From: Lentinus brumalis
Lineage: Eukaryota > Basidiomycota > Agaricomycetes > Polyporales > Polyporaceae
DNA: 64,000 nt
Direction: 5' to 3'
NCBI GenBank assembly: GCA_001792895.1
Contig: MARA01000009.1
Coordinates: 744,001-808,000, forward strand
Positions 512 to 14,830 of the stretch are shown piece by piece (positions within the stretch are counted from its first letter, which is position 1; every line of letters begins with the position of its first letter). A program made the position numbers and the translations under genes. The notes under the pieces were generated by a model that was not told the origin of the DNA, ran no database searches, and was given only the letters and a program-made list of their open reading frames with translations.

Positions 512-526
512 TATTCTAGCCTACTT
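512..526. repeat. Target-site duplication, left copy
   Basis: TATTCTAGCCTACTT lies directly before the T tract (poly(A) of a minus-strand element) and is repeated exactly at 14816-14830. The last two T's may belong to the tail, so the duplication is 13-15 bp. Length and position are those expected of target-primed reverse transcription. Confidence 0.93.
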
Positions 527-547
527 TTTTTTTTTTTTTTTTTTTTT
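525..547 (-). other. Poly(A) tail of the non-LTR element
   Basis: A run of 23 T's on the plus strand is the 3' poly(A) tail of the minus-strand retrotransposon. It sits between the left target-site duplication and a 3' UTR of about 240 bp that follows the ORF2 stop. An uninterrupted tail suggests a recent insertion. Confidence 0.93.
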
Positions 548-785
548 GGTGGAGCGTAAATATCTTGAATCGTAATCGTCCCCATTAGGGCTTATCATAC
601 AATTCATGGTCGATGAGCATCGGCCAGACACGCTAGGCAGACCTATCCTAGGACTTTCGACCTGGGATACGTCACGATAAATACTGCCGCAACAGACACC
701 ACGAGGAAATGCTATTTACGCACTGTGTGTGGGACTCAGAAGTGCGAGAGGTGAGGTCAGACGTCTCGCAGGCTGACGTCTGGCC

Positions 786-3700
786 TCACCTCCCTCGCTT
801 AATACCCACTAAAACCCCGCCATTAATCACCCATTCAGGAGGTAAGTTTTCTCTGTCCTCTATAATTGGCAGCCATATTCGCTCGACATCGTGCGGTCTC
901 AGAGCCTTTTTTCCAAGGGATCTGGCCCTGGCTGCCGTTTTCCGATTGATATCCAGTCGTGCATCGAGCGTGGAGAAGAATCTGTTGACCACCTCAGGTT
1001 CAGTGAATTCTGTGCCGTCTCTCTGTATCACCCTCTCACAACGCAGTTTCCAGATCAGATGCGTCACTTCTGTGCCTAGGATACACCAGAGGTTCTCGGT
1101 GGCAGGCCTCCTTCCTCCCTTTTCTGACTTGAAGACTGCGCACGCCGCGCCGAAGGCCGTACCCCAGCACGGCTCTTTCCATTCCGCGTTGGTGAGTGCC
1201 CATAACTCCTTCAGTAGACCCCATATTATCTCTTGTCCGTTTGCCTTACAATCGAAAATGATATGGGTCATGGATTCTTGTTCTCCACACGTCGCGCATA
1301 CAGCACGTTCGCGGAGTTCGTCTGACATATTCGGGCGTTGCCAATGGGATCCTATCATGTATGCATCGTGGATCGCCATCCACATGAATTGCGAGGCCGG
1401 CCTTGAGACGTGTTTTGACCTCAGGGAGGTCCAGATCGTTGCCTCGTGAAGTCGAGTGTCGAAGCACGCTTCGATTCCGCTTGTGATTCGGTCGATATTG
1501 GCTACCGTGCGGGGCCTTGGACAAGTCCGTTTGTCCTTCTCATTCCTTATGGCACGGTATGCTAGTTTCTGGGATATTGATTGTAGCTTTGCGCCCGTGA
1601 CCATGAATGGGAGCGGGATTATGAGCGGGAGTCTTTCGCCTCGCGCTTTCCCTGCTCCTAGGGCTGCTAGACGGTCTGCGGCTTCGTTCCCGGCGTGCCC
1701 GCTGTGCCCTCTGACCCATCGGAAGAACGTGTGGCCCGATCTCATCCGGAGGCATGCGACTGTCGTCTGAGTCAGGGCCGCGTTCTTTTGCAGAATGTAT
1801 CCTGTATCTTCGTGTCTTTGGTGCCACTTGGTTAGTGCATTCATCGTGGTTTGGGAATCGGTTTCTTGGATTACGCGTGCACTGGTCGGGGCTGCCCGCG
1901 TTGCCAGGAGTGTCGCCGTTAGCTCTCCAGTCTGATTTGACTGTTCGATGGACGTCGGAAGGCGGAAGCTCCTGTTGAGAGCGTGGCCATTCTCGACGTA
2001 GATCCCTGCTCCTGCCTGCGCGTCCTTCTCACCGTTCCGAAGGCAGGACCCGTCTGTTGCTATTGTAATCTCTTGCCCGGATTCGTGTAGCTCCATCGGG
2101 ATTCCTTCGTCCGATGTCTCTTCTGAGTCTGTGAAGATACGGAAAGCGTGCCCGATGTTCCCGTGCGTTGTGACGCAGCGGTTAAAGGGCACGAGGCCGT
2201 CCTCCAGACCTTCGTTGATCAGGTTGGCCATGATTCCTTCCTCATAGTCTTCCGGTTGCCGGCCTGTCGGGTTCCATTTTGCTGGGAGCGTGTCCAGCAT
2301 CTCTCGCGCTCGTCTGGAGCATGCGGACGGGTTCTCGCACCCCATGGTCGTCCGTACGTGGGCGCATCCTGCGCATTTGCATGCGGCACCCGCGCGGTGG
2401 CCGGGGACGGTGTTTCGGTGACCTAGGCGGACGAAGTCGCCTACGGTTATGGCGTGATGTTTTGTCTGGAGACAATCTAGCAGTTTTGAAGGGACCGATA
2501 GCCTTCCTAACCGCGTTCGATCAGCGTAGATGTGGTCCCACATCGGCATAGCGTCTAGGATCGCCCTAGAGAAAGCGAGACCTTCTAGACGTAGGCCGTA
2601 TTTCCTGGCGGCGTCCATCATTCCTTGAAGTTGTGGCGGCAGGCCTCTCGCTCTGGGCTTCCAGTTTTGAAGGAAAGGGCTGATACGAAGCCTTGCTGAT
2701 CGGGGGCGACAATCCTTAGAGACAAAGTTTGCGATCATGTCGTCTGCAAGGAAGGCCCATAGTGGCCGTTCATCGCTGTAGTCGAGGTACGTCTTGAGCC
2801 ACATGATGTCTATCGCTTCGCTTCTGGCGCTGAGGTCTAACATCCCTAGTCCGCCTTGCTCAATCAGGAGGCATACGTGCGCCATAGCCACAGGGGGGGA
2901 GCCCCGCTCGTCCCATAGGTAGTCTCTCATGATCCTGTTGAGTCTCTGCCGAATGACTTCCGGCATTCGCTGAACGTTTGTCAGAAACTGCGTTATGCCA
3001 CCTATGATCATTTGGACAACATGTTTCTTCCCCTGTAGCGTTGCATGGCCATTTTGCCATCGTGCGATGACTCGCATCAGCGGCTGTCTCATTGCTACGA
3101 TCTTCGTTAGGACGAGCGTCCAGATCGCCTCTTGGTCAATATTGTTTCCGAAAAAAGCCCCCAGGATTCTCACTGCCTCACTGTCCTGGGCGACATGCAC
3201 GCCTCTCGGGTAGTTTTTCCAGGAGCCTAGCATGTTGTATGATTCTGCCATCTCTTTGCGGTACGTGGGATTGCCGATTGGGATGATTTCGGTTTTACTG
3301 ATATTGAACCTGGCTTTTGCCGCCGAGCACCAGGTATCCAGGACTGCTTGTAGAGTGTCGAAATCGTCACGACTCGACAGATACACCGTTGTGTCGTCCG
3401 CGAAGAGCACGGCTTTTAGAACCTCCTCGCATTTCGGGATACTGAAACCTTCGATGTCGGATTTCCTAATCATGGCCGACAGTGGCTCGATGGCGAGGTC
3501 GAAGAGAAGGCAGGAGAGTGGATCGCCTTGTCTGACTCCTCGATATATCCGGTACGGCTTGCTGAGTATGCCGTTGACCATCACTGATGTCACTGCGTTT
3601 GCGTAGAGGGATCTGACAATCTGTATGAATCCCGCGGGGAATCCGAAGCGTTCCAGTACCCTCCATAGATAGTCGTGGGCGATCTTGTCGTAAGCTTTTT

Positions 3701-6053
3701 CCTGGTCAAGTGCGACAATGGCACCGTTCTCATCATTCGCTTCTGCCCAGCTGATCATCATTCTAGCTAGCTGGGTATGGTTGTGAATCTTCCGACCGGG
3801 GACGAAACCAGCCTGAGCGTGGTGGATTAGGCCTGGAGCAACCTCTGCTAGCCGTATCGCAAGTGTCTTGCTCAGTAGCTTGTAATCCGTGTTGAGCAGC
3901 GTGATCGGCCGGTAGTTCACGACACGGGTCCGTTCGCCCTTTTCCTTGTATATCGGGGCCATCCATCCTTTTGCAAAGGGGGTATGGGGACTGACACCAT
4001 GGCATCGGATGTCTTCGAATGCCGCCGTCAGCAGTTTGACGATGTCAAAATTGGCCCGTTCCGGGAAGCGGGCATCCTCGACGTGTCGGGCGTGCAGCGT
4101 CTTCCACAGCTCGAAGGGGATACCGTCGAGGCCCGGTGCCGTGCCGTTTTTGGAGAAGCGGAGCGAGAGCGCACATTCCTCGTAGGTGATGCGGTCGTCG
4201 AGGGCCGCCATTTGGGTCTCGGTGAGCTTAGCATCTAGGCTATCTAGGGCTGACTCGATATCCGCTTGTCTCGACTCGCTTGCAGATTGGTCCGCGCCAT
4301 CTTCCTGGACTTTGATATGGTGCGTGCGCGCCATATCTGCCATCCTGGATGAGTCTGATTCGTAGATCTTTTCGCCTGCCGGGCCTAGCTGACCCTCTCT
4401 CTCGAAGGCATTGATGACGTCGCGAGGAGCGCATTCACGGTGCAATTTGGACCAGTATTTCGTCGGTCTGTCACCGAAAAGACGGTGCGTGGCCCGAGAG
4501 TTTTGTTGTTGGTGCTTAACTCGTCGTTGTTTTAGCTGACGTACTTGCTTTGTCAAGGCCGCTGCCTCCGCAATCTTGTCCTGTTCCGCCATGCTGCGGT
4601 CAGCCTTGCACCTACTGAGCCGCTGCTCGCATTCTCGTATCTCGGCCAGCAGCTTCGGTATAACTTCTTTCTCGCGCGTTCGTGCCATCTTCATCACGTC
4701 TGACTTGAACTTGTATAGGATAGACTGCGGGTTCTTGTATTCCGTGCGTGTGGCCGAGTTAGTGATCTCGTCCAGTTCACGTAGCGCCTCCAGACCTCTT
4801 GCCTTGATGCATTTTGCAAGTTTCCGGTCTCGCATCAGCTGGAGGGGGAAAATAGGGCGGCCGGGGCCCACTATGGGGGAGTTTTCCGCCGTCAGCTGTA
4901 CGGAGATCAGGCTATGGTCGGTTTTCACGCTGGCCTCGCATATTCGCCATTCCCGTGCTTGGTCGAAGGCCTGGGGGGTTACATAGATGCGGTCCAGTCG
5001 TGAGAATACGGCATCTTGGCCGCTCCCTCGGTGGAATGTGTATTCGCGCGTTGACGGGTAGGTGAGCCTCCATCCGTCGGCCACCATCATTCCTAGACTG
5101 AGCTTCAGTTCGTCAAGGTCCATAATGGACTGGTCGGGCCCTTCTCCGATTGGAAGTCTGTCGATCGCATCTTCGACGTTGTTGAAGTCTCCCGCCATGA
5201 GTTGGGGCTTGGGACATTCTGGATGCTCTGCATAGTATATTCTCACTTGTCGGTAGAAGGTCCTACGCTCTTCCGTCCCACATGAGGTCGGCGCGTAGAT
5301 GCAGAGAATGGTCTTCATGTCGCCGCCTTGACATGGCAGGGTAATTTGAAGGGCTCTGCCCGGGACGATCTCCGTTGCTACAGCTTCAGATGCTTTAACA
5401 TATCTCGTGTTCAAAACGATTGCAACCCCTTCTTTCTGGGTCGGTGCGTCCGCATGTTCCGAATGGAAGATTCGTATTTTATGAGCGAACATCTTATGGA
5501 TGCTGGCTCTGCGTTCTCCTGTTAGGTGGGTCTCTTGCAACATGAGTATGCCGATTCTGTTGTCAGCCATCATACGGTACGCTTTACCCCATTTGTTGTC
5601 TGGGTGGTCGCGTACAAGGTTCCCGAAACCATTTATATTCAAGGAGGCGACGTTGACTGTCGTCTTGCGTGCGATCCTGTCAGAACGTCTCTCGCCTGGC
5701 TTGCTATGTGCGTCGTTATTAATGTGGGTGTTGTTTTCCTGGGGGAAGGTGCTACCGTTGCCATCCGAGGCGTCCCTGGGGAGGTGCTGAGCACCCGCAG
5801 GCATCTCTCCTCCGCCTCCGACAGAAAGCCTATGACCATGACCGGATTCTTGTACCGTGTGTAGCGTGGGGTTGAATGAGATTTGGTTCGTAGTTGCACT
5901 TGTCGACTGCGTTACAACCATCTTCGCAGTCCTAGACGGTTTCATCCCTCCGTCCCGGGCGGTGTGTGCTCGGATATGGTGTGCAGCCACCTCACCTTGC
6001 TTTAGCTTTCGCTCGGTCCACCGTCGCCTAAATAAGCCGACCGTTATACGCAT
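786..6053 (-). CDS. LINE ORF2: endonuclease / reverse transcriptase / RNase H
   Basis: This 1755-aa protein would nick target DNA and copy the element RNA in place. An exonuclease-endonuclease-phosphatase domain starts near residue 133 (SLNINGFG, LQETHL, GDFNNV, TDHSLI). The reverse transcriptase follows at about 640-900, with APGLDGIPFE, YRPITLLN, ALDQEKAYD, RGVRQGDPLS and the catalytic FADD near 884. RNase H starts near 1330 (ATDGS, TGELTA, ETDSQ, then GNEAADRLA near 1454), with all acidic residues present. A CX2C-H-C zinc-finger-like motif (CATCGEQ) lies near 1584. The ATG at 6053 is the first after an in-frame stop at 6120-6122. The ORF is intact, with no frameshift or internal stop. It is downstream of the cyclin-like ORF with a 290-bp spacer. 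Confidence 0.97.
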   Translation of the reverse strand: MRITVGLFRRRWTERKLKQGEVAAHHIRAHTARDGGMKPSRTAKMVVTQSTSATTNQISFNPTLHTVQESGHGHRLSVGGGGEMPAGAQHLPRDASDGNGSTFPQENNTHINNDAHSKPGERRSDRIARKTTVNVASLNINGFGNLVRDHPDNKWGKAYRMMADNRIGILMLQETHLTGERRASIHKMFAHKIRIFHSEHADAPTQKEGVAIVLNTRYVKASEAVATEIVPGRALQITLPCQGGDMKTILCIYAPTSCGTEERRTFYRQVRIYYAEHPECPKPQLMAGDFNNVEDAIDRLPIGEGPDQSIMDLDELKLSLGMMVADGWRLTYPSTREYTFHRGSGQDAVFSRLDRIYVTPQAFDQAREWRICEASVKTDHSLISVQLTAENSPIVGPGRPIFPLQLMRDRKLAKCIKARGLEALRELDEITNSATRTEYKNPQSILYKFKSDVMKMARTREKEVIPKLLAEIRECEQRLSRCKADRSMAEQDKIAEAAALTKQVRQLKQRRVKHQQQNSRATHRLFGDRPTKYWSKLHRECAPRDVINAFEREGQLGPAGEKIYESDSSRMADMARTHHIKVQEDGADQSASESRQADIESALDSLDAKLTETQMAALDDRITYEECALSLRFSKNGTAPGLDGIPFELWKTLHARHVEDARFPERANFDIVKLLTAAFEDIRCHGVSPHTPFAKGWMAPIYKEKGERTRVVNYRPITLLNTDYKLLSKTLAIRLAEVAPGLIHHAQAGFVPGRKIHNHTQLARMMISWAEANDENGAIVALDQEKAYDKIAHDYLWRVLERFGFPAGFIQIVRSLYANAVTSVMVNGILSKPYRIYRGVRQGDPLSCLLFDLAIEPLSAMIRKSDIEGFSIPKCEEVLKAVLFADDTTVYLSSRDDFDTLQAVLDTWCSAAKARFNISKTEIIPIGNPTYRKEMAESYNMLGSWKNYPRGVHVAQDSEAVRILGAFFGNNIDQEAIWTLVLTKIVAMRQPLMRVIARWQNGHATLQGKKHVVQMIIGGITQFLTNVQRMPEVIRQRLNRIMRDYLWDERGSPPVAMAHVCLLIEQGGLGMLDLSARSEAIDIMWLKTYLDYSDERPLWAFLADDMIANFVSKDCRPRSARLRISPFLQNWKPRARGLPPQLQGMMDAARKYGLRLEGLAFSRAILDAMPMWDHIYADRTRLGRLSVPSKLLDCLQTKHHAITVGDFVRLGHRNTVPGHRAGAACKCAGCAHVRTTMGCENPSACSRRAREMLDTLPAKWNPTGRQPEDYEEGIMANLINEGLEDGLVPFNRCVTTHGNIGHAFRIFTDSEETSDEGIPMELHESGQEITIATDGSCLRNGEKDAQAGAGIYVENGHALNRSFRLPTSIEQSNQTGELTATLLATRAAPTSARVIQETDSQTTMNALTKWHQRHEDTGYILQKNAALTQTTVACLRMRSGHTFFRWVRGHSGHAGNEAADRLAALGAGKARGERLPLIIPLPFMVTGAKLQSISQKLAYRAIRNEKDKRTCPRPRTVANIDRITSGIEACFDTRLHEATIWTSLRSKHVSRPASQFMWMAIHDAYMIGSHWQRPNMSDELRERAVCATCGEQESMTHIIFDCKANGQEIIWGLLKELWALTNAEWKEPCWGTAFGAACAVFKSEKGGRRPATENLWCILGTEVTHLIWKLRCERVIQRDGTEFTEPEVVNRFFSTLDARLDINRKTAARARSLGKKALRPHDVERIWLPIIEDRENLPPEWVINGGVLVGIKRGR

Positions 6054-6054
6054 A

Positions 6055-6099
6055 TCACGGGCTTTCCTGCGCCCGAAAGCCAGTGTATTGGGCCCGTGA
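6055..6099 (-). promoter_or_regulatory. Nested inverted repeat just before the ORF2 start
   Basis: Outer arms TCACGGG (6055-6061) and CCCGTGA (6093-6099) enclose a second pair, GGCTTTC (6060-6066) and GAAAGCC (6075-6081). The outer and inner left arms overlap by two bases, so the two stems compete or shift. The structure ends 2 nt from the ORF2 ATG. It could affect initiation on a downstream ORF in a polycistronic element RNA, but that role is inference. Confidence 0.4.
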
Positions 6100-6343
6100 C
6101 AGACACCGTGTAGGCAGGTTCAAGCATCGCCTGCTGCGTGCGTTGCTTTCCCCTGACGGTTGCATTCCACCCGGGGCGTCACTCCCGGCGCATTGTCATT
6201 CCGAGATACGTCGTCGCAGTCATCCTATATTATCTGGTCGTCTACATCGTCGTACTACCTCTCTTACGATGCGGCCGCGCATTACTGTCGTATGGCGTAA
6301 CGTATCGCAGCCTCCTGTACGCTTCGTCTCCCTTGCTTCCAGC

Positions 6344-7462
6344 TTATCGAGGGTCATGGCTGGAGACTCCATCGGCGTCCGGGATAGGCCGTTGCGTGGG
6401 AGTGAGCGTACGGTCGCTCGTACATGGCGGGCTGGCGTCTGCGTCTAGTGTGAGGGGTCTCCCGACCCAAAGACGCCAGTCTAGAGCTTCGCCGAGGGCT
6501 CGCTCGCATCGTCCGATTTCCTTTGGGTTGAGTCTGGTTATTATCGCCCACGCCCGGTTTGAGTACGCGTGGTCGTATCTGAATTTTGTTGCGAGGACGA
6601 GACATGCAAGGAAGGTTCTACGTGGACAGCACAGAGGGGACGGTAGGCGGGGCCGCAGGGGGAGGGTGAGGCTGCTAAGCGTGTCGACGGGTTGTCTAAC
6701 CGGGGTGCTCACGTTTGTCTCGTTCCAGGGGAGGGCAGTGAGGCCCGTGTCCTCTGCCCGGCCTCCTGCATCTTCCGGAGTGCCGGGGCACGTCCTGTCC
6801 CCGGAAGCAGCGTCTGCCTGCGGGGGTGTGTGTGTGATTCGCTGCAGTGCCTGGGGCTCGGTCTCATCCTCTCTCACGGTTCTGGCTTTCTCCGATTCTA
6901 GCAGCTCCCGTATCTTGGGGCGGACGGCCTCCAGATAGCATAGCGCAGTCTGCAGTGCGCCCATAGATGTCTGGGAGCGTCGTAGTAGCTCGTGGACGAA
7001 AGAGCTTAGCGGGGCGAGGCGGTCCTCTGACCTGGACGCTTCCGCATTCGTTCCAACTTGCGACGGGTCTCCGTCTTGCTCGGTGAGGCAGGTCGGGATG
7101 GGCAGGGGAACAGCTCCCCGTCGCGGGTTTTTACTCATATTTGTCTCTACCGTAGGTGAGGATTGTCGTTGTGGGACGCGGGTGAGTGCGGAGTAGAGGA
7201 GCGGGATCTCGTCCGGGCGCCAGGTCTCGCAGAGGGTTTGGACCGTCTGATCTATGAGTCGTAACGCGTGGTTCGTTCTTGAGGCGGTCGCCTTGTTCCC
7301 TGGACTGCGTCCGGGGACGGGCCTGTAGGGCGTGCGGCCGAGAGGAGACCTGGCTCCTCGTCTAGGCCGCGGTGTTGCCGCGAGGGTTGTGACGTGTCGG
7401 GCCTGCTGTGGGTCCTCGAGCTCTCGGGTCTCCGGCGGGGTGTAACTAGCTGTCACGTCCAT
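6344..7462 (-). CDS. Pho80/Pcl-type cyclin-like protein encoded inside the LINE
   Basis: The ORF gives 372 aa from the first ATG (7462); the frame is open up to 7696 but has no earlier ATG. Three blocks follow the layout of fungal PCL/Pho80 cyclins: a helix around ALRLIDQTVQTL, then SSFVHELLRRSQTS and ALQTALCYLEAVRP, and after an insert of about 95 residues the box core TFLACLVLATKF, YSNRAWAIITRL, NPKEIGRCERAL, ALDWRLWV (about 6450-6625). Pcl cyclins bind and activate Pho85-type CDKs; whether this one does is inference. It lies between ORF1 and ORF2 on the same strand and well inside the element ends. It shares ORF1's frame but is cut off from it by four in-frame stops (7781, 7766, 7706, 7697), so separate initiation or splicing is needed. 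Confidence 0.82.
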   Translation of the reverse strand: MDVTASYTPPETRELEDPQQARHVTTLAATPRPRRGARSPLGRTPYRPVPGRSPGNKATASRTNHALRLIDQTVQTLCETWRPDEIPLLYSALTRVPQRQSSPTVETNMSKNPRRGAVPLPIPTCLTEQDGDPSQVGTNAEASRSEDRLAPLSSFVHELLRRSQTSMGALQTALCYLEAVRPKIRELLESEKARTVREDETEPQALQRITHTPPQADAASGDRTCPGTPEDAGGRAEDTGLTALPWNETNVSTPVRQPVDTLSSLTLPLRPRLPSPLCCPRRTFLACLVLATKFRYDHAYSNRAWAIITRLNPKEIGRCERALGEALDWRLWVGRPLTLDADASPPCTSDRTLTPTQRPIPDADGVSSHDPR

Positions 7463-7780
7463 GGATGCTGACTCTCCGTGGACGTGCACCTGGGGGAGGG
7501 GTCGACTTGGCGGGATGCTGAGTTGTTCAGGGAAGACTATGGTGAGAGCGGAGGCTGCGGGCACCGCCTCCGCGTCGCGGCGCGTCGGGACGGGGCTTAG
7601 TCCTGCCTGCTCATTTCTCGTACTGGCAGCCTGTTTGTATGAGAAGGGAGGGAGAAAATAGGTGCAATCAAGCTTCCTACAGCATCTGTAATCATCTCAG
7701 ATGTTCTAACATACATGTTGTGTCGTGTCTACATATCCATTGTCATACGCCTCAAGGCCGTTTGGTCAAGATCGCCTTGT

Positions 7781-10700
7781 TCAGAACTTCCTCCGTCCTC
7801 CCCGTCCAGCTCCGCGTGAGGAGGGGTCCCTGGAGGAGGGGTCGCGGGGGTTCCGATCGCGTCTGTCGTTGCGACGACGCCCGGTGTTGTCGTTCCGTTG
7901 CCCACCTGCCTCGTCTCCGTCTCTCGGGGACCTCCTGTCTCTGTTGGGCCTCCGTTGCTGCTGGCCCGTGCCCGGACCCCCGGGAGGGTATGACGGCCTT
8001 GTGGTTCTTGCCGCCTCGAAGCGTCCGTTTGCTTCGCCGAAAACGCCCTCGCCCGGTCTCGGGCCATTCCAGCCACGGGTCCGCGGGAAGGGACAAGCGT
8101 GCGTTGGGTGCGCAACGCTGCCGCATCCTGAGCACGAGGATACGTAGCGTACACGTCCTGTTCCAATGGCGAAGCTCCTGTAGCGGCGGGAGCGAAGGTC
8201 TCCGACCCAACGTCTCCATTCACGGAGGTCTCTCGTTGGCGAGCGGATGAAAACGTTGGCGACGTAGCTACCGTTGTCGAGCTGCATGACCTCGACACGT
8301 AGCGTGGATAGGATCTCCTCCATCGCCCTCCAAGGCGTCCAGTTTGCGAAAGCCGGGTTTGCGGTGATCATGTCCATGATCCACTGTTGCATCTTGTCCT
8401 CTGTGAGTACTCGCCAGACTGCCGCGCGGATCTTCGCGACGTTCCCTTCCAGAAACCCATCGAGTGCGAAAAGCCACGATTGCATGGCATTCGCTCTGGG
8501 CGACGCGATGAAGGAGATCGAGCTATACGACCAAGTACCTTTCGCAGTTGCAATCGCAGTCGCGTGAGGGGTCAGGCCTCGTATCGCCCATACACAGGGG
8601 AGGTCTCTGATTCGCCTGCGTGCGCCTTCCTCAGGTTCTGGCGGGACTACATCGAAGTCTGATTCGCCGCTGATCATCTCGAAGGCCCATCGCAGGGCTT
8701 CTGCGATTCTCCTGTTCAGCGTATCGTCCTCGCTATAGCGGTAGTTGTAGACGTGTACCAGGACGTCTGTCTGTGGGGGGTCGCTCCAGACCTCGCGCAT
8801 CCACTCGAGGGCCATCCCGCGGATGGCCGACTCAGGGTCATCGCGATGTACGAGTGGGAAACCACCGTCCGGCGTCGGTGTTGCATTCGTGTCGCTGAGC
8901 GGAGTGTCTTCGTGAAGTGCCGTCGGCAAGAGCTCGCCGTCCTCGTGCTTCCCCCAGTCCTCGTCGTGTTCTTGGTCCCACTCGTCAGCCTCGCCGTCTC
9001 CTGGGATATCTTGCTGACGTCTTGCCTCTGCGTCTTCCGCCGCGATCACAGCTGCTTCTGTGCCCGTTCTCGGGGGGACCCTTCCAGGATCCTCCCGTCC
9101 CATTGATGAGTCGCGTTCCCGGGTGGGAGAGCCTCGCGCACGTCCTCCCGTACGGTCGCGGGATCTCCGCAGAGTGGGCGGGCAGTTCGGGGCTGGGTGT
9201 CTATTCAGATCACCTCGACCGTGCTCGGACCTCTCGCCAAGGCCGCTCGCAAGGTACTCCGCGGCCCGCGTATTCGGGTACGGGACGAAGTCTGAGTGAC
9301 TTCGCTCTCGGTATCGTCCGGCGTACTCGCCATGCGATCTATCGTTATTGCGGTCGTTCCAGGCAGTCGAGAAGTCTTGCAGGTCTGCACGCCAGCCTTG
9401 AGTCTCCCTGGGCTGCATTGCGTCGCCGTGCGAGGCGAGATCCTCCCGCATGGCGTACGCGTCGTTACGTGGGCCCTCGGAGGCGTAGGGTCGTGAGTAA
9501 TGGGAGCGTGACGGGCCCGCGCCAGCTGTCTGAGTTGCCCGTCCTCGAGGGTAGTGGGTCTGTCCTCCAGCACGTTCCTGCAAGACGTGCCTCAGGCTTT
9601 CTTGCCTGGCACGGAGGATCTCTTGCTCGTCCCAGCCGCCTGGCTCTCTTGAGCTGCACCGCGGGTCCTGCTCGGGCCCTTCCTCGACCGCGGTCAACGC
9701 GCGAGCCCTGCCTTTTCCTTTCTGGGCTCTATTCGGGGTCGGTGAGTCACGTCCGGATGTCTCGGCGTCGTCGTCGACATCGACGTCCATCCCGTTTTGG
9801 GGGTCGGGTAGGAGGCTGCCATGACTCCTGGCGCCGTGTTCAGCGGTCTCCGTGTGTGATGCCGAGTGCCGCTGGTCAGGCCTCTCCGCATGCGTCCGCT
9901 GCAGGAGCGGGGCCGCCGGGCGATTAGTAGGGGTCGGGAGGACGTAGCTCGGCTGCCGCTGACTCGGCTGCGTTACTCGGGGCTCAACGCGGGATACACT
10001 GGCTACGATCGGGGTGGACGACTCTACTGGGGAGAAGACATCACTAATAACACTCCCTCGCCCTTCTACTCCTACACCTCGTTCTTCCTCCCACGGGTTA
10101 GAGGCGGTAGAGGTCGGGATTGGTAGCGCCGCGTTGCTTCGCAGGAGCGGAGTTGTTCCCGCCGGCCGGGGGCGGCGGGAGCTGCGTCGCTGTCCCTCCG
10201 GGTCCGGGGTTCCCGACCACAGACGCTTCCTGATGTTCCGAACGTCATCCTGGTGCGACTGTGTCCGAGGTTGCTCACCATAGTTCAGACCATCAGGGTT
10301 GCCTGCCGCGTTGCCGTTGTTGTTTTGCGTCGCCGCGCCTCCGTCTCCTGGAGCGCGATCGTCGAAGGAGGGAGGGGTCCAGAAGAATCTGTAGTAAGCA
10401 CTGTCGTCGAGTCTGACCTCGTTAGCCGCAGCCTCCGTGCGGGCCGTGATCATGGCCGCGTCGTCTCTGGCTCTCTCCTGGCAGGTGCGTCGATCTTCCG
10501 TTGCGCCGGCAGCGGGCTGGCTGAAGCTGAGGAGAATATGGGCGCTCGCCTCGTTCGCGAGCATGTCGGTCGTTGTGACCTGCGCGACGGGGGCGTTAGC
10601 GGTTGTCGCAGCAGCCGCAGGACCGATGGCGGCCGTCGCAGCAGCGACAGCCGTAGGCTGGGCCGCGCCCTCTGCCGCCGCGTCTGCGCCGGCCTCGACG

Positions 10701-11368
10701 CCGGTAGCGTCCTGCGTCTCCTCGAGTTGGGGTTCTCCTGCATTCGCCTGGCCCGCCGCTTCGCGGGCAGCTCTGGCCGTTGCCGCCCTGTCCGACGGGG
10801 ACGCTGAGTCGGAGGACTCCGTCGTCGTGAAGCTGACGTGGATCGGGGAAGAGTCCGGCGTTTCGTTAATCACGGTCGTCGAGCCTTCAGTGGAGGGCGT
10901 GATATTGACTGCCGCCGCGGCGAGACTCGCCTGGTTCGGGGGAAAGAAGAAGACTTCTGCGCGCGACTTGACTCCTACAGTCAGTCGCTCATTGCGGGGC
11001 TCGTGCGCAGCGAATCGTACCTGCGGGTTCTGGATTTCAGCCATCGAGGCCAAGCCTGCCATGGCCGGGGTTCTGGCAAGTCTAGCGTCGGAGACGTTGC
11101 GTTCCTGGGGCGTCAGGAGACGACGGGCCACCTGAGTGGCCGGTGGCGGCTGCGGGGTACGGGGGAAGTTCTCGTCCACGAAGGGGACGAAAGGTGCCGT
11201 GGGGGAGACGAAGGCCGGGGCGCGGGTGCGAGCCGCCGTGCCGTTTTGGTTGGCCGTGGCCGGGAGCGGGGTGGCTGGGACGCGGACGATGCCACCGCCG
11301 GGCGTGATGTCGCCGACAGCGTAGACCGGTTGCTGGGGGTTGTTGGGGTTGTTTTGGGGGTTCGACAT
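7781..11368 (-). CDS. LINE ORF1: Gag-like nucleic-acid-binding protein
   Basis: This 1195-aa protein begins at the ATG at 11368. The first ~800 residues are low-complexity and rich in Ala, Pro, Thr, Arg and Ser, so probably disordered. A more ordered region follows (MALEWMREVWSDPP, AEALRWAFEMISG, WSYSSISFIASP, WIMDMITANPAF). Near residues 1079-1092 is one CX2CX4HX4C zinc knuckle (CSGCGSVAHPTHAC), and the tail is Arg/Gly-rich (RGAGRGGRRKF). LINE ORF1 proteins coat the element RNA and help it reach target DNA. At 1195 aa it is longer than most. Recognition rests on the knuckle, the basic tail and its place upstream of ORF2. Confidence 0.85.
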   Translation of the reverse strand: MSNPQNNPNNPQQPVYAVGDITPGGGIVRVPATPLPATANQNGTAARTRAPAFVSPTAPFVPFVDENFPRTPQPPPATQVARRLLTPQERNVSDARLARTPAMAGLASMAEIQNPQVRFAAHEPRNERLTVGVKSRAEVFFFPPNQASLAAAAVNITPSTEGSTTVINETPDSSPIHVSFTTTESSDSASPSDRAATARAAREAAGQANAGEPQLEETQDATGVEAGADAAAEGAAQPTAVAAATAAIGPAAAATTANAPVAQVTTTDMLANEASAHILLSFSQPAAGATEDRRTCQERARDDAAMITARTEAAANEVRLDDSAYYRFFWTPPSFDDRAPGDGGAATQNNNGNAAGNPDGLNYGEQPRTQSHQDDVRNIRKRLWSGTPDPEGQRRSSRRPRPAGTTPLLRSNAALPIPTSTASNPWEEERGVGVEGRGSVISDVFSPVESSTPIVASVSRVEPRVTQPSQRQPSYVLPTPTNRPAAPLLQRTHAERPDQRHSASHTETAEHGARSHGSLLPDPQNGMDVDVDDDAETSGRDSPTPNRAQKGKGRARALTAVEEGPEQDPRCSSREPGGWDEQEILRARQESLRHVLQERAGGQTHYPRGRATQTAGAGPSRSHYSRPYASEGPRNDAYAMREDLASHGDAMQPRETQGWRADLQDFSTAWNDRNNDRSHGEYAGRYRERSHSDFVPYPNTRAAEYLASGLGERSEHGRGDLNRHPAPNCPPTLRRSRDRTGGRARGSPTRERDSSMGREDPGRVPPRTGTEAAVIAAEDAEARRQQDIPGDGEADEWDQEHDEDWGKHEDGELLPTALHEDTPLSDTNATPTPDGGFPLVHRDDPESAIRGMALEWMREVWSDPPQTDVLVHVYNYRYSEDDTLNRRIAEALRWAFEMISGESDFDVVPPEPEEGARRRIRDLPCVWAIRGLTPHATAIATAKGTWSYSSISFIASPRANAMQSWLFALDGFLEGNVAKIRAAVWRVLTEDKMQQWIMDMITANPAFANWTPWRAMEEILSTLRVEVMQLDNGSYVANVFIRSPTRDLREWRRWVGDLRSRRYRSFAIGTGRVRYVSSCSGCGSVAHPTHACPFPRTRGWNGPRPGEGVFGEANGRFEAARTTRPSYPPGGPGTGQQQRRPNRDRRSPRDGDEAGGQRNDNTGRRRNDRRDRNPRDPSSRDPSSRGAGRGGRRKF

Positions 11369-11965
11369 CGTCGGCGAGTTGAGCGGATCGAGCGAGGCGT
11401 GTGCGAGAGCGTTGGGGAGCGATGTACGTGGCAGTACTGGTGGGAGAAGAGCAGAGGAGACTGGGGGAAGGACAGCGAGCCAGCAGGCTTACCAGGGCGA
11501 CCAGGCCTGCGTCGGGAGACCTTCCCATCCTTTCCTCGCTCGAAATTTGCCCCACCGTCGCCCTCGAAGCTCGCGCTGTCTTCGACATGTCGCGCGTGCA
11601 GTCCTTGGGCACCGCTTGTCTCGTTTGGGTCGAGAGGTAGAGAGGGCGAGCGTTACAGCGTTAGCCAGAGCACAGAAAGAGGAAGGGATGAGCAGAAGTG
11701 GGAGGAAGGCACGCGCGTTCGCGCAGGAGGTACGTAAGAAGTTCGAAAGTGTGTGCGCGTCTCGCGAGTGTACGCGCGCCTCTTCTGCTTGCCGGCGCTC
11801 CGTCGCTCCCACGTCGCCCTTTGCGTGCGCCGCATGCTGCGTTCGCAGCACAATCTTGTCTCTCCATTGTCCTCCTCGTCTCTGCGTTTTACATAGTGCC
11901 CTTCCATAGTGCGCCTGGCCTCTGCTACCGTTCAAGGTAAAGTGGTTTGTTCAGCGGGCAGAGAC

Positions 11966-12445
11966 TTACGTCATGTCTTCTATAGGCTGTCCTGCGCTCT
12001 CTGGGCGTCGCTAGTCTCCCAGACCGTGAGTACCAGACCTCTCTGCTCCGTGCCTTGGCTTCTCTTCTCGCCTTACTGACGGTTCCCATGCAGATACTAG
12101 GCTCGATGGCGCCGTTTTCAGCAGCCGGGACGCGCTCTCACTCGGGCCGTGTCGCGGTCCGCGGCGCGTGTCTCTAGTGTGCGCTTCGCGGACTTGTCAT
12201 CAAGCTTGCGTGGAGTTTCACTGGTCGTCGTGTTCGTGAGTAGCTCCGTCTTCTCGTACCCTGTGGCGAGCGTTCTTGTCTCTGACTGTCCGTTGGCAGG
12301 TGGCCGAGGTACTTGATAGCGCGCGCCGCGTTTTGCGCTCCTCCGCGGAGAGTTAGACATCGAGGGACATGCGCCCTCAGTGCCTGACAGGCTTCTGGTG
12401 AGTGGCTCGTCGTGAGAGCTGATCGCCGTTACGTCATGTCTTCTA
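11966..12445. repeat. 17-bp direct repeat within the LINE upstream region
   Basis: TTACGTCATGTCTTCTA occurs at 11966-11982 and again at 12429-12445, in the 1.5-kb spacer between ORF0 and ORF1. The flanks are not obviously alike, so this is a repeated short motif and not a clear tandem monomer. It contains TACGTCA, which resembles a CRE/bZIP half-site. A regulatory role is speculative. Confidence 0.4.
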
Positions 12446-12835
12446 CAGGGTCCCTCTCCCGCGTACATATGGACCTCCTTGCGCGAACTCAAAGCGTGCA
12501 GGCGCGTTGCGCTTCGGTCGAGGGCTGGGTCATTGAGCGGTAGGGCGCGTCTGCTGAGATACGCAGGCTGCTCGGTCGTGTACTGGCCGTGAGTGCTCGA
12601 GTCAGCCTCGGCCTCGGCCGCCTTGTCTCGCCGCATTGCCCAGCGGTTCTTGGACTTGCGGCTTGTTGTCTGCGACGTACGTGCGTGGCCGGCCGGGTCG
12701 GGAGGCGGAGTCAGCAGTGGGATTACTGGGTGGCTTGTGTGCCGCGATCAGGTGGCTCGTTCGGGTGGCTTCAGCAGATGTTCATTTATCATCCAGCTCG
12801 TGGTGGGGGCGGCCCGTGATCAGAGAAGCGTGTAT

Positions 12836-13666
12836 TTAGAAGCTAAAGTCCCGTTTCATGTTCCAACATATATCGCCCGCACATTCTCGCGAGATCGGCA
12901 TCGGTCGAATGGCCGCGAAGCTCGCGCGGCCGCATTTAAGCCTGCCTGCCCGGGTTGCCTCCCTTCCGTTCGACTCGCCGTTCGTGTCTGGGGTCGTCGC
13001 TGCCATGTCTTCCTGCGAGCTCCGTCTCGCCGCATCTACATCTCCACTCAGAGCTCCCTCGTCGCAGTCATCCATCGCAACTTCTCCTTCGCCGGGCGCC
13101 GCCTCGGACAGGACCTCCATGTCGACCACGCGTATCGCGTTGCTTCGGCATGTATTCATCACCAGCAACCACTCTCTGCCGTCCTCTCCTCTCCAGATCT
13201 CTGCCACTTCGCCGACTATGTGCGGGTCGTAGGTGTCGAACTCGTTTGGGGGAACATCAGGTGTGTGGTATGCAATTGGCGAGATCGCTAGCAGTCTGAC
13301 TAATCTCCCGACTGTGATCGCTTCGTCTGGCTGAACAGCTAGCTCATACAGGTGTTTGACCGCCTTGCGTGTTGGCTGTTTGGTCGGGGATTCCCCACAC
13401 CCTCTCCATCTGGCTATCAGGAGGAGGGTTCTGGGGCGCGGAGGTGGCGGAATCCGTCTGATGGGATATGGGGTGGCCTGGTGGGGCGTTATGTGTTGCC
13501 CGTTTGGTTGCCTCATGCCTCTTAGAGTGCTTGGTGTGCGGCGGGTGGGGCGGAGGTGGGCAGAGATTGCGCGGATAGTTTCTGGAGGGGACGTGGCATC
13601 GGCTTGGTATTTGAAGGTCCAGATAGTATGGGCGTTACGGCTAGGCTTAAAAGATTGCTTTGCCAT
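12836..13666 (-). CDS. LINE ORF0, unknown protein
   Basis: The ORF is 276 aa from the ATG at 13666 and stays open without introns. The N-terminal half is basic and Pro-rich. The C-terminal half looks more like a folded domain (AVKHLYELAV, ITVGRLVRLLAISP, HIVGEVAEIWRGEDG, EWLLVMNTCRSNAIRVVDMEVL) and is followed by an acidic stretch (MDDCDEGALSGDVD). I do not recognise a family. It lies inside the element, 1.47 kb upstream of ORF1 on the same strand, so it is either an extra LINE ORF or a transduced fragment. Coding status is inferred from length and protein-like composition. Confidence 0.5.
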   Translation of the reverse strand: MAKQSFKPSRNAHTIWTFKYQADATSPPETIRAISAHLRPTRRTPSTLRGMRQPNGQHITPHQATPYPIRRIPPPPRPRTLLLIARWRGCGESPTKQPTRKAVKHLYELAVQPDEAITVGRLVRLLAISPIAYHTPDVPPNEFDTYDPHIVGEVAEIWRGEDGREWLLVMNTCRSNAIRVVDMEVLSEAAPGEGEVAMDDCDEGALSGDVDAARRSSQEDMAATTPDTNGESNGREATRAGRLKCGRASFAAIRPMPISRECAGDICWNMKRDFSF

Positions 13667-14815
13667 TCTTTGGTTCGCTAAACGAAGCGAGACAGCGGCG
13701 GGGCAGTTGTGGGACAGATGGCTTGGGTTGGGCACGACTGACTGGTGCTCCTTGTCATTCAGCTGCCATCCGCCAGTCGCGCCTAAGGCCAGGGTAGCTA
13801 CTAGAGTGAAGGGTGGCGTGCAGGCCGTCTAGGACTGAGATTGTGTCGCCGCGGCTGTTCATACGGGTATGTCGGGCTTCTCAAATTATCGCGGAAACGA
13901 GTAGTGGCTAGTAGCGTGGTGGGGAAGCCCTTTCCGCCCCGTTAGTGGAGGGAACTCCTATCCTGGGGCGTCAGGGAGGGGCGGTCTTGACGTCGGTTCG
14001 TGAGCCGAGAACTCTAAATTGCACACTAGGCGTCGTACGTAGTCTTATGCGTTCAGTCATCGTTCGAAAATGCGTTGAGAGAGGTGGCTGTATTGGGAGC
14101 GTTTGGTATCTCTCTCTTATTTGGGTGGGCTCCTCGCGGGCGTAGCGTGTCACGTGATCGTGAGACAGCTCTGGCGGGCCGCCTCTCCGAGTAATCTTAT
14201 CGCGGGAGATGTCGCGGTACAGGCACAGGCGCGCGGGCTTCACCCGGCTGCCCGGCTGTTGTCTGCTACTGCACAGGGCTTGCAGGTGCAGGGATATATC
14301 TCCTCTGCAAGTCGCGTCGTTTGAGGGGTACGTATCGTCAGGGCTTCTTTTAATGGGAAGAGCAGGCCTGATTGCTCCGCCTCCATGCGGGAGCCACGTT
14401 ACTCTAGCGCGGCGGTCTGGGCTGTTCCGGTCGGAGGCGCCCGTTGCCAGCGCATGCTCGACTTGCGTTGCGTTCATCCGTGTTGACTTGCAACTTCGAT
14501 CGTCCACAATGGGGTCGCCGTACAGTAGGCGTGAGCATGACTGCTCCTTCTCCTGCCACTAGCTTGGCCATGGAGATCTGGCATAGCCAGGCGCGGCCAT
14601 AAGTCGCGCAGCGCTAGCGCTGATAGTCACTGAGACAGTGGGGACATGATCTCGTTGGATTCTGGGTCCGCTCGTACTCGCCGCAAGTGGCTTAGAGTAT
14701 TCTGGGCATCCGACATTGTATTCTAGCCATTAGATAGCCACGGGACGGTCGCTCCAAAGACCGTCGACCGTGGGAGAAACGCGCCATGATGGCGGTTAGA
14801 GGAAGAGGAGCCCCC
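13667..14815 (-). other. LINE 5' region
   Basis: This stretch lies between the 5' end of the element, fixed by the right target-site duplication, and ORF0. The first element bases read GGGGGCTCCTCTTCC on the minus strand. It would contain the internal promoter and 5' UTR if the copy is full length. I see only short, unconvincing open frames, the longest at 13971-14507. Confidence 0.6.
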
Positions 14816-14830
14816 TATTCTAGCCTACTT
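14816..14830. repeat. Target-site duplication, right copy
   Basis: This is an exact copy of TATTCTAGCCTACTT from 512-526 and marks the 5' boundary of the element. On the minus strand the flanking sequence reads CCACCAGGTAAGTAGG, so the insertion point is 2 nt after a GT of a consensus-like splice donor. The element may have landed in an intron. Confidence 0.93.

Follow-up and report, generated by a model that had tools for sequence, protein, structure and literature searches.

A complete LINE in the genome of Lentinus brumalis was found to carry an open cyclin frame between its ORF1 and ORF2. The stretch of DNA analysed, hereafter the window, comprises 64,000 nt (contig MARA01000009.1, positions 744,001 to 808,000), and the genome that was searched comprises 53.4 Mb in 136 contigs. 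The cyclin-bearing element is 14.3 kb long (527..14815 of the window, minus strand), and the frame within it encodes 372 aa (6344..7462, minus strand) and is, by homology and predicted structure, a Pho80/Pcl ('pas1')-type cyclin. New in this analysis is that the exon-1/exon-2 junction of the cellular gene is spliced in the LINE copy. The reading as a whole, that a processed copy of a host cyclin mRNA was taken up by the LINE, kept by selection and acts on a kinase, is given a probability of about 0.5.

Boundaries of the LINE and position of the cyclin frame

The whole element is enclosed by a direct-repeat pair, a perfect target-site duplication (TSD) of 15 bp, TATTCTAGCCTACTT, with one copy at the LINE 3′ end (512..526) and one at the 5′ end (14816..14830). 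The poly(A) tail, seen as 23 T on the plus strand (525..547, minus strand), overlaps the TSD by 2 nt. The 5′ end is matched at 4 other places of the genome, with the similarity stopping at window positions 14812-14816, and the 3′ end at 40 other places, 39 of which start at 520-534. Since both ends agree with family copies, they are ends of the LINE family and not a chance pair of repeats. ORF2 (786..6053, minus strand; 1755 aa) contains endonuclease (PF03372, E = 2.1e-8), reverse transcriptase (PF00078, E = 6.2e-34) and RNase H (PF00075, E = 1.8e-22) domains, and the element is classed as a LINE on the first two of these together with the poly(A) tail and the TSD. ORF1 (7781..11368, minus strand; 1195 aa) is without a Pfam match and has a CX2CX4HX4C knuckle near its C terminus, recognised by eye. 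Upstream of it lies an additional LINE-family frame, here called 'ORF0' (12836..13666, minus strand; 276 aa), which has no Pfam domain and 81 genome matches including its own, a few of them second pieces of one place; it is apparently an unnamed extra protein of this LINE family. From 5′ to 3′, all on the minus strand, the order is the 276-aa frame, ORF1, the 372-aa cyclin frame and ORF2.

An earlier sequence-only reading had placed the ORF on the element strand, between ORF1 and ORF2 of a LINE bounded by poly(A) and TSD, and this placement is confirmed by the TSD and the family ends. ORF1, the cyclin and ORF2 are separate frames, as they would be if a host cyclin gene merely lay between the ORF1 part and the ORF2 part of two different LINEs. 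Such a juxtaposition is very unlikely, since all three frames lie within a single TSD pair, the two ends are those of the family, the ORF2 leader common to other copies is present on the cyclin side, and order and strand agree with those of other copies.

The ORF1-ORF2 linker was read in 25 of 29 non-window ORF1 loci (L009-L037), taken from the first 30 of the 41 ORF1 matches in the genome (the element's own included). The set is without L011 and L015, which have no ORF2 match in the stretch read, and without L033 and L036, which have no ORF1 match there, and it includes two identical pairs (L014/L024 and L031/L034). The 25 linkers measure about 97-1151 bp, approximate lengths for which the first in-frame ATG was used, against 1727 bp for the cyclin-bearing linker. 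The cyclin is absent from all 25, a relaxed search giving, in L010 alone, two matches at chance level (E = 0.33 and 5.1). On its ORF2 side the cyclin-bearing linker is matched by 13 of the 25, and in five linkers the similarity starts at window positions 6192-6195, about 150 bp past the cyclin stop. This common ORF2 leader (6054..6195, minus strand; delimited by blastn among the linkers) is possibly involved in ORF2 translation. The stretch from ORF1 to about 6195 has no significant match in the other linkers, which places the cyclin in that part of the linker that varies between copies. The insert is bounded on its ORF2 side (about 6195), its 5′ edge not being fixable because the linker part following ORF1 matches none of the others.

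The nearest other LINE copies have 70-71% DNA identity (best candidates only), and ORF2 protein identity to other copies reaches 69% (27 of 244 candidates scored); no database ORF2 relative above 70% was seen in 120 of 123 matches. A second member of this LINE lineage was not found in the genome among the best candidates compared. The absence of the cyclin from the 25 linkers is, to the letter, what the sequence-only reading had said would speak against it, but no copy of the lineage was found that could lack the cyclin; its further suggestion that the LINE could be spreading cyclin genes through the genome is not borne out by the single copy found. Dozens of long LINE copies occur genome-wide, many with open ORF2 frames, and the scored copies lie at 64-69% (ORF2 protein) or about 67-73% (DNA) identity to the window copy. 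The LINEs of this genome look like many lineages with a low copy number each.

Identity of the cyclin and its host relatives

The cyclin ORF begins with the first ATG (context CATCCATGG) in a stop-to-stop frame of 450 codons. The first half of the predicted cyclin box (about residues 148-205; 6848..7021, minus strand) was placed by model helices and conservation, and the second half (residues 273-335, LPSPLCCPRRTF...WRLWVGR; 6458..6646, minus strand) by Pfam, alignment and model. Among 7994 candidates scored, 430 homologues were obtained at E<=1e-3 (best 2.6e-55), the alignment to Pho80/Pcl cyclins spanning both halves of the box, and homology of such strength leaves chance as no explanation. 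The best-scoring database protein, from Trametes sanguinea, has 46% identity over 72% of the query. When the model was compared with 252 chains, ranks 1-4 were taken by Pcl10 and Pho80, which makes the fold closest to Pho85 cyclins, at a structural Z below the level that the tool deems safe for helical proteins. A PDB search with the profile of alignment A1 gave no chain at E<=1, and one with the single protein gave only two matches, both at chance level. The homologues and the top structure ranks uphold the earlier claim of a Pho80/Pcl-type cyclin with ordered blocks. The Pfam search that had been proposed gave a divided answer: Cyclin_N was matched at residues 282-331 (E = 6.5e-4) but below the cut-off (19.9 vs 23 bits), and PF08613 was not matched. 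On the host genes introduced below, PF08613 barely reaches the cut-off for C93 (21.1 vs 21) and does not reach it for C49.

The LINE copy keeps the conserved blocks, their order and the exon-1/exon-2 join of Agaricomycete Pho80/Pcl cyclins ('G1/S-specific cyclin pas1', 'PHO85 cyclin-5'). It differs from these cellular cyclins in being intron-less and inside a LINE, in the absence of about 230 C-terminal residues of the host protein, in an exon 1 that is mostly unrecognisable and in a very long branch (1.9-3.3 changes per column; all cyclin trees were quick trees). Eight invariant residues are altered, two of them, Q296Y and K307I, in a clearly non-conservative way.

In the genome, the LINE cyclin protein matches three places, namely itself, C93:611052-611945 and C49:1008405-1009289. 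The latter two are outside LINEs: neither ORF1 nor ORF2 is matched in the 15 kb read around the first or the 11 kb read around the second. Identity to C93 is 46-48% (46% over 260 aligned codons) and identity to C49 is 67%, but over 76 residues only. The C93 cyclin is nearly identical to a Polyporus arcularius protein, with a tree path of about 0.008-0.015 changes per column. The C49 gene (C49:1008087-1009301) is a truncated, fast-evolving second cyclin gene with splice signals at the same place as in C93. Its frame, like the LINE cyclin, ends just past the cyclin box, and the two have Y296 in common, a position occupied by Q in all 149 database proteins with a recognised motif. In quick trees, the pairing of the LINE cyclin with C49 received SH-aLRT values of 85 and 48 and was flagged as long-branch attraction; in the tree without C49 the placement of the LINE cyclin was still not firm.

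No database relative exceeded 47% identity over half or more of the query in the best 120 of 430 matches per search, none exceeded 51% among the tree rows, and a profile search with the LINE cyclin and C49 gave no closer relative among the matches listed. A LINE-borne relative was not recognised in two database searches (best 120 of 430 each) of proteins that come without genomic context. In IMG/VR one stretch fits a pattern, and none encodes a relative. The polypore Trametes cingulata has this cyclin twice, as P0006 and as a shorter additional copy, P0042, on a 3.9-kb contig.

Probable passage through RNA and capture by the LINE

The former exon-1/exon-2 junction lies at 7251..7252 (minus strand), between bases 1 and 2 of codon D71. 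In C93, use of the splice signals GTGAGT...CTCTAG joins ...KYAAKLV to DQAVKSL, as seen in many database proteins, and in C49 the signals GTGAGT...TTCAG stand at the corresponding place; the LINE copy reads ...RTNHALRLI-DQTVQTL across the junction, without an intron. That the junction is spliced in the LINE copy while both host genes keep splice signals argues for a capture through RNA. The recognition of a removed intron rests on a nine-residue match to exon-1 ends: this stretch scores 12.4 and ranks first among the 100,433 stop-free stretches in the six frames of the window when compared with an exon-1-end profile whose filter favours L[V/I] ends and so helps the LINE copy. The profile was made of 72 tails (52 distinct) that passed this exon-1-like filter, some database proteins starting inside the intron. 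It gives 21.8 for the exon-1 end of C93, -22.8 and -25.3 for the intron ends of C93 and C49, and a low -5.9 for the exon-1 end of C49 itself. A tblastn search of C93 exon 1 and 56 other exon-1 pieces against the LINE copy gave nothing at E<=1, so that exon 1 of the LINE copy is recognisable by its last residues only.

The cyclin copy shows neither a poly(A) nor a TSD of its own, as the cyclin stop is, by eye, not followed by an A run, and the two sides of the frame have no direct repeat of >=12 nt in common. This argues for a template-jump capture, with a jump out and back as the simplest course, and not for a separately inserted retrogene. A processed cyclin retrogene put into this LINE copy by the machinery of another LINE, after or independent of the mobility of the copy, would also be intron-less, and processed pseudogenes of cellular RNAs are made by LINEs (PMC2104539). 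Such an insertion is nevertheless improbable: the missing poly(A) and flanking repeat, both of which could have decayed, speak against it, and the LINE insertion looks recent, given its perfect TSD and its open ORF1 and ORF2, while the cyclin has diverged strongly from all donors seen.

On this most likely route, a template-jump capture, the reverse transcriptase would have left the LINE RNA just upstream of the ORF2 leader during target-primed reverse transcription, jumped onto a spliced Pho80/Pcl ('pas1')-type cyclin mRNA and returned by a second jump to the LINE RNA near the end of ORF1. The product would be a full-length chimeric LINE, still mobile, and the outer TSD together with the lack of a close source gene suggests that it has since transposed at least once with the cyclin on board. 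A fungal precedent for double template jumps by LINEs is given by the MGL/WEIRD/Mg-SINE chimeras of Magnaporthe, which arise by single or double template switching (PMC2104539). The Magnaporthe chimeric retrogenes likewise consist of a cellular-RNA copy fused to a LINE in the same orientation, and the tripartite chimera is flanked, as here, by one pair of short direct repeats; the LINE part there is a 5′-truncated 3′ piece, whereas here the insert lies in a full-length element in which ORF1, ORF2 and the cyclin frame are open (PMC2104539).

Constraint on the frame and its proposed action

Over the 260 codons aligned with C93, the LINE cyclin differs at 38% of first, 37% of second and 63% of third codon positions. 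Changes were found in 8 of the 60 columns that are invariant in 41 relatives, in 4/23 columns conserved at >=95%, in 13/29 and 21/37 columns of the intermediate classes in descending order of conservation, and in 86 of the 100 columns below 50%; against the P. arcularius protein, they affect 11/78 conserved and 60/88 variable positions. When neutral drift of C93 to the same identity was simulated, the frame remained open in 1 of 500 runs. In the branch test for the LINE copy, omega=1 was rejected over 249 codons (2dlnL 10.1, with dS saturated) and not rejected over 124 conserved codons (2dlnL 0.8, with dS saturated); the three-sequence branch dN/dS was saturated and the C49 branch stood at its bound. 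Because of this saturation, reliance is placed on the conservation gradient. The avoidance of residues conserved in cellular cyclins suggests purifying constraint on the LINE cyclin, and on this sequence pattern neutral decay is disfavoured. With regard to such decay, raised by the sequence-only reading as a counter-indication, the distribution of changes speaks for the cyclin, but the codon test is saturated and not significant for the conserved core.

Part of the constraint could predate the capture. With RNA passage and capture as a single event, it would have acted within the LINE; part of it would have acted outside had the source been a cellular retrogene or paralogue that is now lost. 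C49, truncated and with Y296, hints at such a source lineage by its sequence, the tree pairing being weak. The cyclin might accordingly be a passenger, captured by template jumping without a function in the element, its frame open because the capture is recent, from a fast-evolving cellular paralogue that has been lost in the meantime or that exists in a different strain or species. This is a real possibility, held at somewhat below even odds, as the genome contains a single LINE copy of the cyclin and C49 demonstrates that a fast-evolving truncated paralogue exists, with splice signals at the same place, Y296 and an end past the cyclin box. It requires, however, a lost or unsampled source: no close one was seen, C93 standing at 48% and C49 at 67% over 76 residues only with a weak pairing (SH-aLRT 85 / 48, long-branch attraction flag), and no source exceeds 47% over half or more of the query in the database matches listed or 51% in the tree rows.

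Under the preferred reading of a captured cyclin kept by selection, the frame would afterwards have been held under purifying selection, as the gradient suggests, and its protein would be made from the LINE RNA, like ORF2. It would bind a host Pho85/Pef1-type kinase and bias the cell toward G1/S, a stage with conditions in favour of reverse transcription. In fission yeast, Pas1 works together with Pef1 at G1/S, and human L1 prefers S phase; a LINE-made Pho80/Pcl cyclin could bring cells into a state favourable to reverse transcription. That the LINE encodes a CDK activator is a possibility, and the loss of the C-terminal tail together with Q296Y and K307I could also mean an altered kinase choice, a decoy or a loss of function. 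It is proposed tentatively, as a bolder claim that we consider possible but do not favour, that a host Pho80/Pcl cyclin has been domesticated by an autonomous LINE lineage and now serves it as a third working gene, which would activate a host Pho85/Pef1-type kinase and tune cell cycle or nutrient signalling to the reverse transcription of the element, a non-LTR counterpart of the retroviral cyclin. The rv-cyclin of walleye dermal sarcoma virus binds cdk8 and cdk3; its identity to metazoan cyclins is <20% in every case, and it has been described as functionally orthologous to cyclin C (PMC3185748). The likeness is that of a reverse-transcribing element with its own cyclin, and the difference is that rv-cyclin belongs to a retrovirus and not a LINE and is not Pho80/Pcl-like (PMC3185748).

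The LINE, the Pho80/Pcl cyclin, template-jump chimeras, the retroviral cyclin and the capture of host RNA by LINEs are each already known. What appears to be new is their combination, a full-length LINE with an open cyclin frame for an additional gene; the open-access literature searched (titles and abstract openings, with subscription journals mostly outside the scope) showed no cyclin-bearing LINE. LINEs are usually viewed as carrying only copying tools. The finding would be of high interest if a second LINE-borne copy of the cyclin were found. If the reading is true, an autonomous element can acquire regulators of its host when LINEs jump between templates, and a captured and readable CDK activator in a full-length LINE would make the link between retrotransposition and cell-cycle state directly testable.
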